Assembly (NCBI GenBank): GCA_030427595.1
Contig: JAUIBX010000003.1
Span: 1 to 61,966 of the forward strand
DNA: 61,966 bases
Direction: 5' to 3'
Source: Bacteriovoracia bacterium
GTDB taxonomy: Bacteria > Bdellovibrionota > Bacteriovoracia > Bacteriovoracales > Bacteriovoracaceae
A model generated the notes under the pieces. That model ran no database searches. It was not told where the DNA came from and worked only from the letters and a program-made list of their open reading frames with translations. Made by a program: the position numbers and the translations under genes. This document shows, piece after piece, positions 19,891 through 26,834 of this stretch (its first letter is position 1; every line of letters starts with the position of its first letter).

Positions 19891-21222
19891 CTATAGGGGC
19901 TTCTTGCTCAAAATATTATCACTTTCTTCTGGCTTAAGAATAAAGGGCTGCAGTCCTAATTGATTAAAAATAAAATCAGGAACTCTTACTCGATAGAAAA
20001 TTCCCTTCTCATGATTACTTGTTTTAATGATATTTGTTTTTGAGGCCACGGCACTATGAGCAGCACCTTCATCATAGGGAACAAAGAGATCATACTGATC
20101 TTGTTTTTCTAGAAAGTAATTAATGATATGGGAGCGAAGATTCCTCATATCCTCATCATTAAATGAACTCACAACATAGGAATGAGGGTGAATCCTCTTA
20201 ACAATTTTTGCTTTAATGGGATCATTGAGAAGATCTTTCTTATTAAAAACGATAAGACGCTCTTTCTCTCCAACACCGAGTTCTTTAAGAACCTCTTCTG
20301 TTACATTGAGATGCTTCTTGTAATTGGGGTCACTAATATCACAGACAATAATGAGAAGGTCAGCTTCTAGCGCCGACTCCAAAGTCGTTTTAAAACCTTC
20401 AATCAGGTTATTGGGGAGGTTGGAAATAAACCCCACAGTATCGATAAGAATCATCGGGGGATGAGTATCTGGGTTGAGAGTACGAAAAGTTGAATCCAAC
20501 GTCGCAAAGAGCTTATTTTCTTCCTTTATGGCGACTTGGCATAAGCGGTTCATCAGTGAAGACTTCCCAGCATTGGTGTAGCCAACTAGTGCAGCGGTCA
20601 CCGCCATATTCTGTCTTTTCTTCTTTTGTTGCTCACGACTTTTCGCTAAGAGTTTTAATTCCTTTTTATAGAACTCAATTCTTTCGCGGATGATACGACG
20701 GTCAAGTTCAATTTGCTTTTCACCTTCACCACCTTTAACACCGACACCACCTCTTTGACGGCCAAGGTGACTCCAAAAACCAGAAAGGCGCGGAAGTACA
20801 TATTGAAGGCGAGCGATTTCAATTTGAATTTTAGCGTCACGAGTTCGAGCATGACGGGCAAAAATTTCTAAGATGACGTGCACACGATCAACCACAGAGA
20901 GGCCAGTTATTTTACGGATATTACGGATTTGAGAGGCCGTGAGTTCAAAGTCAAAGACCAGCAGGGTGGCTCCTTCATCTTTGGCCTTGGTTGCGATCTC
21001 TTTTAGCTTTCCCGAACCAAGAATTGTTGCGGGATCAAGACTATTTCGAGATTGGATATATTGGTAGCCCGTGGGAATACCAAGGGTACGCATGAGTTCA
21101 CGTAGTTCTGTTAGAGAACGTCCCGTTTCAACTTCTGTTTTATGCTCCTCAAACTTGGGGCAGATGATGGAAACAAGGGAAGCTCTCGCATTAGTTGAAA
21201 TGTGAAATTCATTATCAAGCAA
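19891..21222 (-). CDS. hflX: HflX ribosome-associated GTPase
   Basis: HflX splits or rescues stalled ribosomes. The 443-residue protein has the N-terminal HflX domain (ILGSGKLKEI, LVFDFELTASQIRNI, VVDRVHVILEIFARHARTRDAK), the linker SGFWSHLGRQRGGVGVKGGEGEKQIELDRR that is diagnostic for HflX, and a GTPase domain with G1 GYTNAGKSS, G3 DTVGF and G4 NKKD. A C-terminal extension follows (about 370-443). It is the last gene of the pantothenate operon on this strand, 21 bases after panC; a functional link is not obvious. Confidence 0.95.
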   Translation of the reverse strand: MLDNEFHISTNARASLVSIICPKFEEHKTEVETGRSLTELRELMRTLGIPTGYQYIQSRNSLDPATILGSGKLKEIATKAKDEGATLLVFDFELTASQIRNIRKITGLSVVDRVHVILEIFARHARTRDAKIQIEIARLQYVLPRLSGFWSHLGRQRGGVGVKGGEGEKQIELDRRIIRERIEFYKKELKLLAKSREQQKKKRQNMAVTAALVGYTNAGKSSLMNRLCQVAIKEENKLFATLDSTFRTLNPDTHPPMILIDTVGFISNLPNNLIEGFKTTLESALEADLLIIVCDISDPNYKKHLNVTEEVLKELGVGEKERLIVFNKKDLLNDPIKAKIVKRIHPHSYVVSSFNDEDMRNLRSHIINYFLEKQDQYDLFVPYDEGAAHSAVASKTNIIKTSNHEKGIFYRVRVPDFIFNQLGLQPFILKPEESDNILSKKPL

Positions 21223-21243: not shown

Positions 21244-22080
21244 CTATAAATTAATTAGAACATTATCTATAAGACGAGTATCTCCCATGTGATAAGCCCC
21301 TGCAACCACTACTTGCCTAGTTCTTGGCCCTGGAGCTTTTAGGGTTTGAGCATCAAGAAGCTCGAGGTATTGCCATGAGGGATCTTTAAAGAGGATCTCT
21401 TGACGAAGGTTTTGCGCCTCATCGGGAGCCTTGAGGTATTTTTGGGCCACCATTCTTAATGATTTATAAATATTGGCGGCCTCTAGCTTTTGCTCGCTGG
21501 TCATATATTGATTGCGACTAGAAAGGGCCAAGCCTGAAGATTCCCTTGCAATGGGCACCATGTGAAGCTCAATCGCAAGACTAAGGTCTTTAGTCATCTT
21601 TTGGATGATCTTAAACTGTTGATAATCTTTTTGGCCGAAGTAGGCCTTATGGGCTCCACTTAATTGAAAAAGCTGATAGACGACGGTGGTGACACCTTTG
21701 AAATGGCCAGGACGTTGCAAACCACATAGGGCATGCTCGAGTCCTGTAACTTGAATTTCCGTTGAGAAGTCCTCAGGAAAAATTTCTGTTGGCCTTTCAG
21801 GAGCAAAAACAAGAATCTTTTCACTACCTTGCAGTTCTTTTAGCTTTTTAAGGTCACTTTCAAGAGTTCGGGGATATTTCTCATAGTCTTCATTGGGACC
21901 AAACTGCTTAGGATTTACAAAAATAGTAACGAGGGTGTGATCATTTTCTTTTAATGATTCTTTTACCAGGTTGAGGTGCCCTTGGTGAAGGTTGCCCATT
22001 GTGGGAACCAAACCTAAGATTCCTAGGGAGCTTTGTTGACGATAATTTAGGTAATCGGATTTCTTAGTGAAGAGCTGCAT
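21244..22080 (-). CDS. panC: PanC, pantothenate synthetase
   Basis: PanC joins pantoate and beta-alanine with ATP. The 278-residue protein shows GLVPTMGNLHQGHLNLV with the HIGH-type motif, TIFVNPKQFGPNEDYEKYPRTLE, FGQKDYQQFKII, and PIARESSGLALSSRN, all core PanC motifs. It overlaps the end of coaBC by 17 bases. It uses the product of the PanB plus reductoisomerase-like pair encoded upstream in the same operon. No panD for beta-alanine is present in the window. Confidence 0.95.
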   Translation of the reverse strand: MQLFTKKSDYLNYRQQSSLGILGLVPTMGNLHQGHLNLVKESLKENDHTLVTIFVNPKQFGPNEDYEKYPRTLESDLKKLKELQGSEKILVFAPERPTEIFPEDFSTEIQVTGLEHALCGLQRPGHFKGVTTVVYQLFQLSGAHKAYFGQKDYQQFKIIQKMTKDLSLAIELHMVPIARESSGLALSSRNQYMTSEQKLEAANIYKSLRMVAQKYLKAPDEAQNLRQEILFKDPSWQYLELLDAQTLKAPGPRTRQVVVAGAYHMGDTRLIDNVLINL

Positions 22081-23362
22081 TGTTCTCCCAGATGAGAGGA
22101 AAGGTCGCGTTTGCCATCTCTCTTTTCGTTAATAATTTTTCTGCACTCATATTTATATTGTCGATACAGGTAACAAATCGGTAGTGAGCCTGATCGGCCT
22201 TGAACCCTAGTGATTCGCCCTCATTTGATATAAGACCATTGCTGACTTTTGTTCCTACCAAGAGGTCCACTGGTTTTCGCTTGAATTTTTCAATGAGGAC
22301 TTCATCGCTCAGTTCACTTTCCGCTGCAAAGCCAATTACCTTTTGATGAGGCTTTTTGACCTTTAATACCGCGGCCAAGACATCTGGAGCCCTTTTAATT
22401 TTGAGTGAGGACTCCATTTGAGACTTTTTTAATTTTCCAGTAGAGACTTCAAATTCAATATCGCCAATGGCAGCACAGGAAATGTAAAGATCCGCCTCCG
22501 TGAAGTTTTCTAGTACCTTTTCGTACATATCACCTGTTGTTTTTATGCGAATCACTTCATAGTCAAGATGTTGTTCGTAATTATTAAGTTCTTCTGTTGC
22601 ATAGTGACCGGCAATGACGGTCACTTTATTTCCGGCCAAGAGCATGGCCTCAATAAAGGGAATCGCCGTCTTACCCGTTGATGCATTGGTGAGATAGCGG
22701 ACCTCATCAAGTGGAGCGACTGTTGCTCCTGTCGAGATTAGAATTTTCTTTGAGTTGGCGCTCGGTAGACTCCAAGTCAGGCCAATCGCCTTAATCACAG
22801 CAAGGTCCGCGAGCTTGCCTGCACCTTCATCACCACAAGCGAGGAGACCGCTTTTTGTACCTGCGATAAAAACAAAGGGAAGACCGTTAAGTTTTTTTAA
22901 GTTCTCTTGAACAAAGGGGTGAGACAACATTTCTGTGTTCATTGCAGGAAAAACCACTAAGGGCTTATCCTTTCTCCAAGCGAGAAAAAGTGAGCTCAAT
23001 AGATCTGTTGCTCTTCCCTGACAAAAGGTTGCAAGGGTATTGGAACTTAAGGGGGCAATGATCATCCGGTCAGCCCATTTGGCCAAAGCCACATGAAGAA
23101 CTGATCCCTCAAGTTTGGGGTCACGATGGGATAGTTCTCCAAAGTCATCATCTGGTTGATAAACAGCTTCACAACCGAGGTAGATAAAAGTCTCTGGCTT
23201 TATAAAGGCCAATGCGCCCTTTGTGAGAATCACACGTACTCGATGACCCGACTTCACAAAATCGCGAGCAAGATCAAAAGCTTTGTAAGCACTGATGGAA
23301 CCAGTGACACCTAGGGCTATTTTCATGGGCGCACTATTCCATAAAGAGGACTTTTTGGCCAT
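22064..23362 (-). CDS. coaBC: CoaBC, phosphopantothenoylcysteine synthetase/decarboxylase
   Basis: This 432-residue bifunctional enzyme converts 4'-phosphopantothenate and cysteine to 4'-phosphopantetheine. The N-terminal flavoprotein CoaC half has GVTGSISAYKA, IIAPLSSNTLA and the PAMNTEM motif; the C-terminal CoaB half has ISTGATVAPLDEVRYLTNASTGK and IGFAAESE. I keep ATG 23362 because AGAGG lies seven bases upstream, although a second ATG at 23326 just before the conserved KIALGVTGS is possible. It lies between coaX and panC. Confidence 0.94.
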   Translation of the reverse strand: MAKKSSLWNSAPMKIALGVTGSISAYKAFDLARDFVKSGHRVRVILTKGALAFIKPETFIYLGCEAVYQPDDDFGELSHRDPKLEGSVLHVALAKWADRMIIAPLSSNTLATFCQGRATDLLSSLFLAWRKDKPLVVFPAMNTEMLSHPFVQENLKKLNGLPFVFIAGTKSGLLACGDEGAGKLADLAVIKAIGLTWSLPSANSKKILISTGATVAPLDEVRYLTNASTGKTAIPFIEAMLLAGNKVTVIAGHYATEELNNYEQHLDYEVIRIKTTGDMYEKVLENFTEADLYISCAAIGDIEFEVSTGKLKKSQMESSLKIKRAPDVLAAVLKVKKPHQKVIGFAAESELSDEVLIEKFKRKPVDLLVGTKVSNGLISNEGESLGFKADQAHYRFVTCIDNINMSAEKLLTKREMANATFPLIWENNAALH

Positions 23363-23373
23363 GAGAGAACCTC

Positions 23374-24147
23374 TTATAACGTACTAACGTATTGAAAATA
23401 TAAGGCGTGATGAATGAGGTGGGGCTGAAAAAAAGATTCTGTTGATCCACCTTCTTGAATGGTCTGTTGAAAGAGCAACCCATCACGTCCTGTGCAAATG
23501 ACCCGTTGGTCAGGGTTATCTATCATTAGTCCTTTCACCTCTTGGGAAACTTTCTCAACGAGAGAGTTCACTAAGAATTTGTGGCCCGAGCTAATGGCAT
23601 CTTTCGTACTTTGAGGTGCACCAGAGGGGAAGTCGAGGGTGGCCTTATTTAAGCTATCAAAGTGGTGAGAACTGCTAAAGAGTTGAGCTCCTCTTTGATA
23701 ACTTTGGGCGAGAGTTACAACCCCAGGAATAATGTAACCACCTTGAAAACCTCGTTCATTGACATGGTCAATGGTTAAGAAAGTTCCAGAATCTATGATG
23801 ATGACAGGAGCTTTGAGAGCATGAAAGCAGTAATGGGCGATCGCCAAGCGGTCATGGCCTAAAGTTCTCTCATAAGAAATCGGCATTCCTAGAAATGAGT
23901 TTCCCTCATTACTGTTAAAGTCTTGAAAAATCTTTGAAGATTTAACCTCTCGAGAAACGGAGGAAATCATGGTTCTTTTTTGTGGTAAATCTTTGAGTTC
24001 TTCAAAGCTTAAAGGGGTGATCTTTTTAAGTTGACCCTTCTTCCATTGGCCAACATGGGGATTGCTATTTCCGATATCGCAGGTAAAGCAATCTTCCTTG
24101 GGAAGACTGTTATCAAACTTTAGGAATAGAGACTCGAGAGAATTCAT
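23374..24147 (-). CDS. coaX: CoaX, type III pantothenate kinase
   Basis: CoaX phosphorylates pantothenate. The 257-residue ASKHA-fold protein has the first phosphate motif CDIGNSN near residue 23-29, the GHDR motif of type III kinases in RTLGHDRLA, and DSGTFLTIDHV for the second phosphate motif followed by GGYIIPGV. The start is uncertain: ATG 24147 is used here, and an in-frame TTG at 24153 abuts the panB stop. Type III enzymes are not inhibited by CoA, so pathway control is likely transcriptional. Confidence 0.9.
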   Translation of the reverse strand: MNSLESLFLKFDNSLPKEDCFTCDIGNSNPHVGQWKKGQLKKITPLSFEELKDLPQKRTMISSVSREVKSSKIFQDFNSNEGNSFLGMPISYERTLGHDRLAIAHYCFHALKAPVIIIDSGTFLTIDHVNERGFQGGYIIPGVVTLAQSYQRGAQLFSSSHHFDSLNKATLDFPSGAPQSTKDAISSGHKFLVNSLVEKVSQEVKGLMIDNPDQRVICTGRDGLLFQQTIQEGGSTESFFQPHLIHHALYFQYVSTL

Positions 24148-24153
24148 TACCAA

Positions 24154-24960
24154 CTAAGGGGTGTGAGTTTGGGATGTGTTCTGATCTTTCTTAGAGGCAA
24201 CGTCTTTGAGGTAAAGTTCAACTCCCTGACGTTTGAGTTCATAAAAGTCCGCGACAGGGTGGCAAAAGTTAGGGGGTCTGTTTGGTCCCATCTTGAGAAG
24301 GTCATTGATCACAAGGACCTGGCCATCAGTTTGGTCACCACTACCAATACCAATCGTTGGAATAGACAGTTCTTGTGAAATCTCTTGAGCAAGGGGAGCT
24401 GTCACACACTCTAAAACCAGGGCGAAGCAACCAGCGTCTTGTAAGGCCTTGGCTTCACTCTTTAAGCGAAGAGCATCAGGATCATTTTTACCATGGGTAT
24501 AATAGCCACCTTGTTGGTGAACACTTTGTGGGGTCAGGCCAATATGACCCATTACAGGTATTCCAACTTCCGTACATTTTTTGATGAGTTCGCAAAAAGT
24601 GACTGAGGCTCCTTCTAACTTTAGGGCCTCCGCCTTCGTGTATTGAAAGAGCTTAATGGTATTATCAAGACCACGTTCAACAGTGGCATAAGTTCCAAAG
24701 GGTAAATCAACCACGGTGAATTTATCAGGGGCACCTCTTTTAACGGCACGACCAAAGGTCATCATATCCTCAAGTGTCGTCTCAACTGTTGTTTCGTAAC
24801 CGAGAACAACATTTCCTACGGAGTCTCCCACAAGAATGAGATCGAGATCAGTTTCATTGAGGAGTTGAGCGGTTTGATAGTCGTAGCAAGTAAGCATGCT
24901 AAGAGGACGAGCCCCTTTAGATAATTTACGTGACTTTATTTTGCGGGTGTTGAGTTTCAT
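24154..24960 (-). CDS. panB: PanB, ketopantoate hydroxymethyltransferase
   Basis: PanB makes ketopantoate from 2-ketoisovalerate and methylene-tetrahydrofolate. The 268-residue TIM-barrel protein shows MLTCYDYQTAQLL, LVGDSVGNVVLGYETT, VVDLPFGTYA, MGHIGLTPQSVHQQGGY and PTIGIGSG, essentially every PanB signature. Only three bases separate its start from the stop of the reductoisomerase-like gene, so the ketopantoate maker and its probable reducer are translated together. Confidence 0.96.
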   Translation of the reverse strand: MKLNTRKIKSRKLSKGARPLSMLTCYDYQTAQLLNETDLDLILVGDSVGNVVLGYETTVETTLEDMMTFGRAVKRGAPDKFTVVDLPFGTYATVERGLDNTIKLFQYTKAEALKLEGASVTFCELIKKCTEVGIPVMGHIGLTPQSVHQQGGYYTHGKNDPDALRLKSEAKALQDAGCFALVLECVTAPLAQEISQELSIPTIGIGSGDQTDGQVLVINDLLKMGPNRPPNFCHPVADFYELKRQGVELYLKDVASKKDQNTSQTHTP

Positions 24961-24963
24961 GGT

Positions 24964-25932
24964 TTAGCTTTTTTTAGGGGTGGGGTTTAAGCCACTCTTT
25001 AGTTTTTCGAAGGTCTTTTGCAGCTGACTCTCTCGCCATTCTCTTTGCAGGTCCTTTCGCTCTTCATTGATAGAGAGCTTACGAACTTCTTCAAAGAAAG
25101 CTCCGCTCCAAATGTCCTGTCGCAGCTTTTCTATGGTTTCTTGGTACCCTTTGTCAAAGAGCTCTTTTGAGGCAAAGCGAGCACCAATTAACGCGTGGGG
25201 ACTAATAAGGTTAAAGAACTCACTTGGTCCTAACTCAATCATGGCGTTGGCAATGAGCTTCACTTCGTGCCATGCCTCTAAATACGCCAATTCACTAGGA
25301 ATATCATTTTTAACAAGAGTGTCGAAGCAGCTCTTTGCTGCGTAGGGTAATAGACCGCATAGTAGGGTCTGTTCACTAAGAAGGTCGGCACGGGTTTCTT
25401 GTTCAAAAGTTACTTCATAGGGACCCGCTGTTATTCCTAAATTCTTAGCTAGATGAAGAAGCTCTTTTTTGAAAAATTCTCTTTTTTCAGTTGTGACCTT
25501 ATCTGCACTGTAAACGGCACCAAGGCCAGCTCCCTGTTGGTAAGCACTTCTTAACTCACTTGCAATTGCCTTAGGAGCGAGTAGGAGGTGAGTCCACTGT
25601 GGGTAGGTCTGGTCGAGGCCATGCTCAACCATGCTGGCGCCGTGAGCGTAAATAATGACAGTGTCTTTGGGGATATTTCGTTGATTTTCCTTTAGAAAAT
25701 CAGCGTGTTGGTGATCAGGAATGAGAAGCAAAAGAAGACGGCTTTCTTGTAAGAGAGTGTTGAGTTCCCTACTCGCTTCAAAGGCCAGAGCTTCAGCACG
25801 AGACCAGGAAGGGGAATCCGGTCTGAGGTAACACCTAACTTGGTGGCCACTATCTCTTAAATTTTGGGCCCACGCCTGCCCTTGGGAGCCGAGTCCCACC
25901 AGGGTAATATTGTGCCAGGCGCCAGTTGCCAT
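24964..25932 (-). CDS. Divergent ketol-acid reductoisomerase (IlvC family), probable ketopantoate reductase
   Basis: This 322-residue IlvC-family protein has Rossmann motif GLGSQG at 13-18, the LIPDHQH strand and YAHG with H97. The catalytic residues of KARI all appear to be present: K121 (LAPK), D183 and E187 (DLLSE), E219 and E223 (LEAWHE), S244 (LISP). Surrounding sequence is clearly diverged from typical biosynthetic IlvC. It opens a panB-coaX-coaBC-panC operon with no ilvB, ilvN or ilvD and no panE. IlvC is known to reduce ketopantoate in enterobacteria and to be the only such enzyme in Corynebacterium. I infer that this copy is dedicated to pantoate formation. Confidence 0.82.
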   Translation of the reverse strand: MATGAWHNITLVGLGSQGQAWAQNLRDSGHQVRCYLRPDSPSWSRAEALAFEASRELNTLLQESRLLLLLIPDHQHADFLKENQRNIPKDTVIIYAHGASMVEHGLDQTYPQWTHLLLAPKAIASELRSAYQQGAGLGAVYSADKVTTEKREFFKKELLHLAKNLGITAGPYEVTFEQETRADLLSEQTLLCGLLPYAAKSCFDTLVKNDIPSELAYLEAWHEVKLIANAMIELGPSEFFNLISPHALIGARFASKELFDKGYQETIEKLRQDIWSGAFFEEVRKLSINEERKDLQREWRESQLQKTFEKLKSGLNPTPKKS

Positions 25933-26009
25933 GAACTTCTCCTTTTCATCAGGGCTTGTTAGTATGCGTTCTTATCACAATGCACAGGAGAGTGCGAGGA
26001 GACAGTTGC

Positions 26010-26834
26010 TTGCTGCTTGATAAAACCTTTTATTTTAATGAAAGAGGTGAACTCACATCTGTTGACCCGGGGCTTGCCTTTGGGAACTCTGCTTTTCTCT
26101 ATGCTCAAAGTATTTTTACGACCGCTGCCATTAGAGACCACTCACTATCTTTCTATTCACAACATATCGACCGCTTAAAAAGGGGCGTGAAGTGGTGTTT
26201 TGAAAAAGAGGTGAAGAGTGAGTTTATCGAGGATCTTATCCTAAGTTCTTATTCTTCATTAAAAAGTTGTAAAGAACTTGCAGGTTTTGGGGATTGGAAG
26301 TTTCGGCTTACCTTTATTCAGAGAGCTAATGGTGAGCTATTTCCACTTCTCGCTTTTAGTCCTTTTACTTTCTTAGAGACCAATGTTGAAAAAGTTAAAA
26401 TTGTCTCAGAAGTTTTTGGTAGTGATTTTAAAAAAGACAACATCAAAGTCGGTGATTACCGCACTTCAAAAATATATGAGCAAAGAGTGGGGGAAGCTCT
26501 TTTATTTTGCGATAAAGAAGGTTTCGTGACAGAGGGAAGTTACTCCAATCTTATTTTAAGAGCTAAAGGTGGAAAATGGGTGACGCCGAAACATGAATTT
26601 GTCCTAGAGGGAATTGCTCTTCAGCATGGCCTAGAGGGATTAGGTATCGAGCGGTGCGAGATTCATCAGTCAGAATTAGAGAAATATGAAGCAGCTTGGT
26701 TTATCAATGCCTTGAGGGGGCCACAAGCCATCTTGAGAATTGGTGATCATAGCTTTAAGAATTCGTTAAAGTTTCACGAAGAGATTAAAGAGGTTTTTAA
26801 TAAGAATCGTAAGGAAAAGGGGAGAGAATTATGA
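26010..26834 (+). CDS. Class IV PLP-dependent aminotransferase (BCAT/PabC type)
   Basis: The fold-type IV pattern is clear: DPGLAFGNSAFLYAQSIFTT, the likely PLP lysine in NIKVGDYRTSKIYEQ, then EALLFCDKEGFVTEGSYSNLIL and a C-terminal PKHEFVLEGIALQHGL. Members include branched-chain aminotransferase and aminodeoxychorismate lyase; I cannot choose by eye. I place the start at TTG 26010 (274 residues) because GAGGAG lies eight bases upstream at 25996-26001; longer in-frame starts at 25956 and 25980 lack a ribosome site. It is divergent from the pantothenate operon and could supply ketoisovalerate from valine. Confidence 0.75.
   Translation: MLLDKTFYFNERGELTSVDPGLAFGNSAFLYAQSIFTTAAIRDHSLSFYSQHIDRLKRGVKWCFEKEVKSEFIEDLILSSYSSLKSCKELAGFGDWKFRLTFIQRANGELFPLLAFSPFTFLETNVEKVKIVSEVFGSDFKKDNIKVGDYRTSKIYEQRVGEALLFCDKEGFVTEGSYSNLILRAKGGKWVTPKHEFVLEGIALQHGLEGLGIERCEIHQSELEKYEAAWFINALRGPQAILRIGDHSFKNSLKFHEEIKEVFNKNRKEKGREL

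Follow-up and report, generated by a model that had tools for sequence, protein, structure and literature searches.

A divergent ketol-acid reductoisomerase homologue as predicted ketopantoate reductase in the pantothenate operons of Bacteriovoracia

A homologue of ketol-acid reductoisomerase (KARI) that is encoded in the pantothenate operon of a Bacteriovoracia bacterium is predicted, with high confidence, to be a ketopantoate reductase (EC 1.1.1.169). An earlier note on this DNA had put forward such an enzyme as a stand-in for PanE, a proposal that is supported and has survived every computational test tried. Full specialisation of the protein for this step is held with less confidence than the function as such. 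The use of a KARI as ketopantoate reductase is already known; what would be new is a separately branching, apparently dedicated form with a fixed place in the pan operon where the amino-acid pathway is lacking. In the open-access literature, no description of such a dedicated pan-operon KARI was found (subscription journals could hold one), nor any paper on pantothenate in Bacteriovorax or on pantothenate together with ilvC in Bdellovibrio.

The gene and its operon

The window, i.e. the whole stretch of DNA that was analysed (61,966 nucleotides of contig JAUIBX010000003.1, assembly GCA_030427595.1), contains the following features around the KARI gene:

25956..26834, plus strand: class IV aminotransferase, divergently transcribed (PF01063 2.2e-20; subfamily matches weak only)
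25939..25944, minus strand: AAGGAG ribosome-binding site, 6 nt upstream of the KARI start codon
24964..25932, minus strand: divergent homologue of class I KARIs, put forward as a dedicated ketopantoate reductase (Pfam KARI_N/KARI_C; AlphaFold model; sole KARI of the genome)
24154..24960, minus strand: panB, ketopantoate hydroxymethyltransferase, starting 3 bases past the KARI stop (PF02548 1.5e-90; TIGR00222 over cut-off)
23374..24153, minus strand: coaX, type III pantothenate kinase (PF03309 2.3e-18; TIGR00671 over cut-off)
22064..23362, minus strand: coaBC, phosphopantothenoylcysteine synthase/decarboxylase (TIGR00521 over cut-off)
21244..22080, minus strand: panC, pantoate--beta-alanine ligase (TIGR00018 over cut-off)
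19891..21222, minus strand: hflX-like GTPase gene, which closes the conserved co-directional block (Pfam GTP-bdg_N/M, MMR_HSR1; same position in relatives)

The KARI reading frame occupies exactly positions 24964 to 25932 of the minus strand, starts with ATG and encodes 322 amino acids. Its location three bases before panB, in an operon with coaX, coaBC and panC, had been described in the earlier note and is borne out; hflX is a further co-directional gene, so that the order reads KARI, panB, coaX, coaBC, panC, hflX. This order is kept in most relatives read, with the KARI gene flanked on its other side by genes for a class IV aminotransferase and an inositol phosphatase. An HflX-like GTPase gene closes the pan/coa block in many relatives. 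The divergently transcribed aminotransferase of the window is a possible candidate for the enzyme that converts valine into 2-ketoisovalerate.

Membership of the encoded protein in the KARI superfamily is evident from both Pfam domains, KARI_N (PF07991; 4.3e-24, 85.4 bits against a curated cut-off of 20.6) and KARI_C (PF01450; 3.2e-23, 83.1 bits against 29.1), together with the D/E/E/E two-Mg site and the catalytic Lys and Ser. All six residues that had been singled out before, K121, D183, E187, E219, E223 and S244, are present at these positions, and H97 is also kept. The spacing of the metal ligands (4, 32, 4) equals that of D191/E195/E227/E231 in class I KARIs (PMC5940873). An AlphaFold model with a mean pLDDT of 95.6 can be aligned over about 310 columns with solved KARIs from S. 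aureus, M. tuberculosis, C. jejuni and C. glutamicum, at TM scores mostly of 0.8-0.88 and 24-30% identity. The protein thus shares the fold, the Rossmann and knotted-domain families and the H/K/D/E/E/E/S positions with class I IlvC (EC 1.1.1.86; C. glutamicum 6jx2, S. aureus, M. tuberculosis). In contrast to these enzymes, it stays under the equivalog cut-offs, lacks about 10 residues of the usual N-terminus, carries I123, A182, S186, H246 and L248 in place of conserved residues, and is encoded among pan genes in a genome that lacks the acetolactate pathway. The description of its surroundings as clearly diverged is justified: against TIGR00465, the equivalog model for IlvC, the protein reaches 170.6 bits where 226.15 are required, and against NF004017 168.5 bits where 336 are required. 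Regarding the other two families of ketopantoate reductases, the ApbA match of the protein is weak and under the cut-off, and the Pfam search detected neither ApbA_C (PF08546) nor DUF2520 (PF10728), which places it outside PanE/ApbA and PanG, respectively.

Branched-chain amino acid and pantoate genes in the source genome

The source genome (3.82 Mb, 99.8% complete) contains a single PF01450 match, the KARI of the pan operon. Family searches of this genome revealed no IlvD (detected in 14/14 control genomes), no ApbA_C (PF08546, the C-terminal domain of PanE; detected in 8/14 controls) and no DUF2520 (PF10728, PanG-type). No acetolactate synthase over the cut-off was found either, the single weak match scoring 43.5 bits against 538, with 14/14 controls positive. 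Hence, the lack of ilvBN, ilvD and panE, which had been noted for the neighbourhood of the operon, holds genome-wide, and the search for panE and for a second, canonical ilvC that the earlier note had suggested returned neither. That note had spoken of a specialised copy fixed in the pathway; the gene is not an extra copy, since it is the sole KARI of the genome. Among known families, this KARI is the only candidate for the ketopantoate-reductase step, and it is encoded together with panB and panC.

An IlvC that serves amino-acid biosynthesis would be accompanied by acetolactate synthase and IlvD in the same genome, and this combination is missing here. Because the genome lacks IlvD, ApbA_C and an acetolactate synthase over the cut-off, the amino-acid-pathway substrate of the KARI is not expected to be made. 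This bears on the reading of the gene as an ordinary branched-chain amino acid ilvC that resides in the pan operon to help make 2-ketoisovalerate for PanB. The KARI fold and homology, as well as the fact that PanB uses 2-ketoisovalerate as its substrate, would suit such a role, yet the route to 2-ketoisovalerate needs both IlvD and acetolactate synthase. Moreover, the synthesis of valine, leucine and isoleucine is missing in Bdellovibrio and Bdellovibrionota according to published models and surveys (PMC7529429, PMC11988736). An ordinary ilvC, which was given hardly any chance, is rejected on account of the absence from the genome of IlvD and of an acetolactate synthase over the cut-off.

Proposed reaction and pathway

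In the pathway put forward here, PanB would convert 2-ketoisovalerate, possibly derived from valine of, for example, prey, into ketopantoate, which the KARI would reduce to pantoate. PanC would then form pantothenate, followed by its conversion into phosphopantothenate by CoaX and further into phosphopantetheine by CoaBC. The ketopantoate reductase would have arisen from a KARI. Its site for NAD(P)H and the catalytic Lys, Glu, Asp and Ser residues would be retained, as would probably the two-Mg2+ site. Of the chemistry of KARIs, it would use only or mainly the reductase half, in the form of a hydride transfer to the 2-keto group of ketopantoate, presumably with NADPH as cofactor, and the isomerase step may have been lost or weakened. 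Since ketopantoate resembles the intermediate of the normal KARI reaction and since E. coli, Buchnera and C. glutamicum use their KARIs for this step in vivo, we infer that the homologue performs only or mainly the reduction. Canonical KARIs shift an alkyl group in 2-acetolactate and then reduce the resulting 2-keto acid, and their reductase half takes various 2-keto acids (PMC5940873). The ilvC genes of Buchnera and E. coli complement panE, and in C. glutamicum ilvC replaces panE (PMC4306246). As the metal ligands needed for isomerisation are kept, a loss of the acetolactate reaction is not readable from the sequence.

Distribution across the class and the phylum

The class Bacteriovoracia includes predators. 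Class-level and family-level searches gave an identical set of 129 genomes, 105 of which contain the divergent KARI and 118 panB. Every one of the 105 KARI carriers also has panB, with the KARI gene directly upstream on the same strand in 102 of them, and none of the 11 panB-less genomes has the KARI. In three genomes (G058, G059, G060), the KARI is carried elsewhere and does not adjoin panB. Scores with a profile of the lineage are bimodal within the phylum: the 105 KARI genomes reach at least 304 bits, and no other genome exceeds 225. A local insertion of the operon not shared by relatives, which according to the earlier note would have spoken against its proposal, is ruled out by the KARI-panB junction in 102 of the 129 genomes of the class. 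The junction also occurs in other families of the phylum, where at least 12 genomes (G298, G302, G303, G304, G308, G309, G318, G319, G330, G334, G357 and G359) encode a very diverged KARI directly upstream of panB. The arrangement is phylum-wide rather than local.

IlvD was found in only four of the 129 genomes, three of which also have an acetolactate synthase over the cut-off. Within the 105 carriers of the divergent KARI, IlvD is absent from 104 and acetolactate synthase passes the cut-off in one. One genome, G120, possesses two KARIs, a canonical one beside ilvB/ilvD and a divergent one beside panB. An ApbA_C protein occurs in addition in three genomes with the divergent KARI, namely G004, G041 (L036) and G057 (L034).

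The divergent KARI is lacking in 13 panB-containing genomes. Ten of these encode a DUF2520 protein, which in every locus examined lies just ahead of panB, i.e. in the slot otherwise taken by the KARI. DUF2520 is missing from all 105 KARI genomes and from all panB-less ones, so that no genome holds both, and the three panB genomes with neither protein (G020, G083, G122) are 59-75% complete. The switch even occurs within one genus (g11), where G027 has the KARI, and G026 and G028 have DUF2520. PanG is the DUF2520 ketopantoate reductase of Francisella and Coxiella. DUF2520 is known as the domain of PanG-type ketopantoate reductases (PMC4572677; for PanG see also PMC5449765). Fisher tests gave p values of about 3e-12 (KARI versus DUF2520) and 9e-10 (KARI versus panB), with the restriction that the genomes are related and not independent samples. 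The DUF2520 operons also differ as a whole, both in gene order and in a split of coaB and coaC in most of them. Since KARI and DUF2520 both co-vary with two whole operon types in related genomes, their mutual exclusion is not independent gene-by-gene evidence, and the argument is based on the pattern, not on the p values. The alternative pan operon within the class (L038-L044, L048, L049) reads DUF2520-panB-panC-coaB/coaC, split in most cases; several of these loci continue with a coaX-like gene and a short, panD-like one.

It could be argued that pantoate is made by an unrecognised reductase, given that other dehydrogenases of the wider superfamily remain candidates, and that the KARI reduces another CoA-linked 2-keto acid or regulates. 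A regulatory role is thinkable for the KARI of G297 (L211), which bears a MerR-type helix-turn-helix. This explanation is nonetheless quite improbable, as a known ketopantoate-reductase domain, DUF2520, fills the slot where the KARI is missing, and as the catalytic residues are almost invariant in 39 sequences of the lineage.

A separate lineage with its own residue signature

The KARI tree that the earlier note had called for was inferred by maximum likelihood from 62 sequences. Of these, 39 belong to the pan lineage, and the other 23 are amino-acid KARIs of bacteria and archaea, C. glutamicum 6jx2 and unlinked KARIs. Two members of the pan lineage are displaced copies, L051 from G060 and L054 from G059; two more, L211 and L226, run up to contig ends and were included by genus-mate or tree position; all others were seen adjoining panB. 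In this unrooted tree, the pan-operon copies form a lineage of their own. A single branch with support of 100/99, recovered in 200/200 bootstrap trees, parts the 39 from the 23 other KARIs, the distinction requiring just one change on the tree. The KARI of the window thereby does not group with ilv-linked KARIs, and the dual-function Corynebacterium enzyme falls on the amino-acid side of this branch. The split persists after removal of the signature columns described below, after removal of long branches and when either half of the protein is used by itself, with uneven FastTree support in the full set. As the tree is unrooted, a single origin of the pan lineage is favoured, not proved.

An alignment of the 39 pan-lineage sequences with 12 amino-acid KARIs, numbered according to the KARI of the window, revealed a signature that can be written as PK[AG][IV] ... 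DL[FIL][ST]EQ. The two segments map to the window as follows:

25561..25575, minus strand: KARI residues 120-124, PKAIA, loop containing the catalytic Lys121; Ile123 in place of the Pro of amino-acid KARIs (alignment)
25369..25386, minus strand: KARI residues 183-188, DLLSEQ, containing the metal ligands D183 and E187; Ser186 in place of Gly (alignment)

Position 123 is I/V in 38/39 pan-lineage sequences and P in 11/12 amino-acid KARIs, and position 186 is S/T in 38/39 and G in 11/12, respectively. Thr182 is found in all 12 amino-acid KARIs and in one of the 39, and an aromatic residue at position 249 in all 12 and in only about three of the 39. In sequence, these positions adjoin the catalytic Lys121, the metal ligands D183/E187 and Ser244. 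We take position 123 to correspond to a residue that lines the substrate pocket in plant KARI. The catalytic residues themselves are almost invariant across the 39 sequences, and the metal ligands are kept. The dual-function KARI of C. glutamicum retains the canonical APKGPG and DLFGEQ; thus, ketopantoate reduction as such does not require the signature, which would rather mark a specialised lineage.

These data also bear on the possibility of an unspecialised dual-function KARI that reduces ketopantoate but still is a full acetolactate isomeroreductase, merely moved into the pan operon, like IlvC of Corynebacterium and Buchnera. All metal ligands and the catalytic Lys are indeed retained, and KARIs are promiscuous reductases (PMC4353338). 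However, with IlvD and acetolactate synthase nearly absent among the 105 carriers, little selection for acetolactate activity is expected. In addition, the conserved residues are changed (I/V instead of P at 123, S/T instead of G at 186, loss of the aromatic residue at 249 in most), unlike in C. glutamicum, and a separate canonical KARI is kept in G120. An unspecialised enzyme is hence considered unlikely, though it is the strongest of the three alternatives. As to the origin of the dedicated reductase, we lean somewhat towards a single ancient event in the phylum that would have turned a KARI into a ketopantoate reductase without the isomerase step, i.e. a third lineage beside PanE and PanG with its own signature, and with a MerR-type DNA-binding domain gained in one genus.

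Comparison with known ketopantoate reductases

The dual-function IlvC enzymes of C. glutamicum, Buchnera and enterobacteria likewise act as ketopantoate reductases in place of PanE (PMC4306246). Yet, these are canonical enzymes of the ilv pathway with a second duty, whereas in the lineage described here the first duty has apparently been lost, and the position of the gene before panB is fixed across the class and beyond. PanE/ApbA shares the presumed reaction and a broadly similar Rossmann N-domain with the KARI homologue, but its C-terminal domain ApbA_C has no counterpart in the protein or its genome. PanG would also perform the same reaction, and its relatives fill the same operon slot in related KARI-less genomes. 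Its C-terminal domain, however, is unrelated, making it a different solution of the same step.

If correct, the assignment would provide a case in which a bifunctional enzyme outlived the loss of its main pathway as a specialist for a side reaction in more than 100 genomes, with PanG as sister solution in the same slot. It would also call for corrected annotations, as such KARI genes may pass for valine synthesis in organisms without it and panE-less genomes may be scored as pantothenate auxotrophs. The pair of canonical and pan-linked KARIs in G120, together with the signature residues, would then make KARI substrate specificity directly testable.

Further KARI homologues of the phylum

The KARI with the MerR-type domain mentioned above (L211:109-1230, genome G297) carries the helix-turn-helix at its N-terminus (PF00376, 3.8e-9), and in the genus-mate locus L246 a KARI gene lies directly upstream of panB. 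The L211 protein is possibly a reductase that also regulates. A different KARI homologue (L052:4761-5837 and L057:4598-5608) is clustered with CTP-transferase and D-2-hydroxyacid dehydrogenase genes; its catalytic Lys is replaced by Arg and some Glu ligands are lost, and it therefore probably catalyzes another reaction. Finally, solitary KARIs occur in other families of the phylum (L209, L210, L212-L214, L216-L218, L220), where no ilv or pan genes were recognised nearby.
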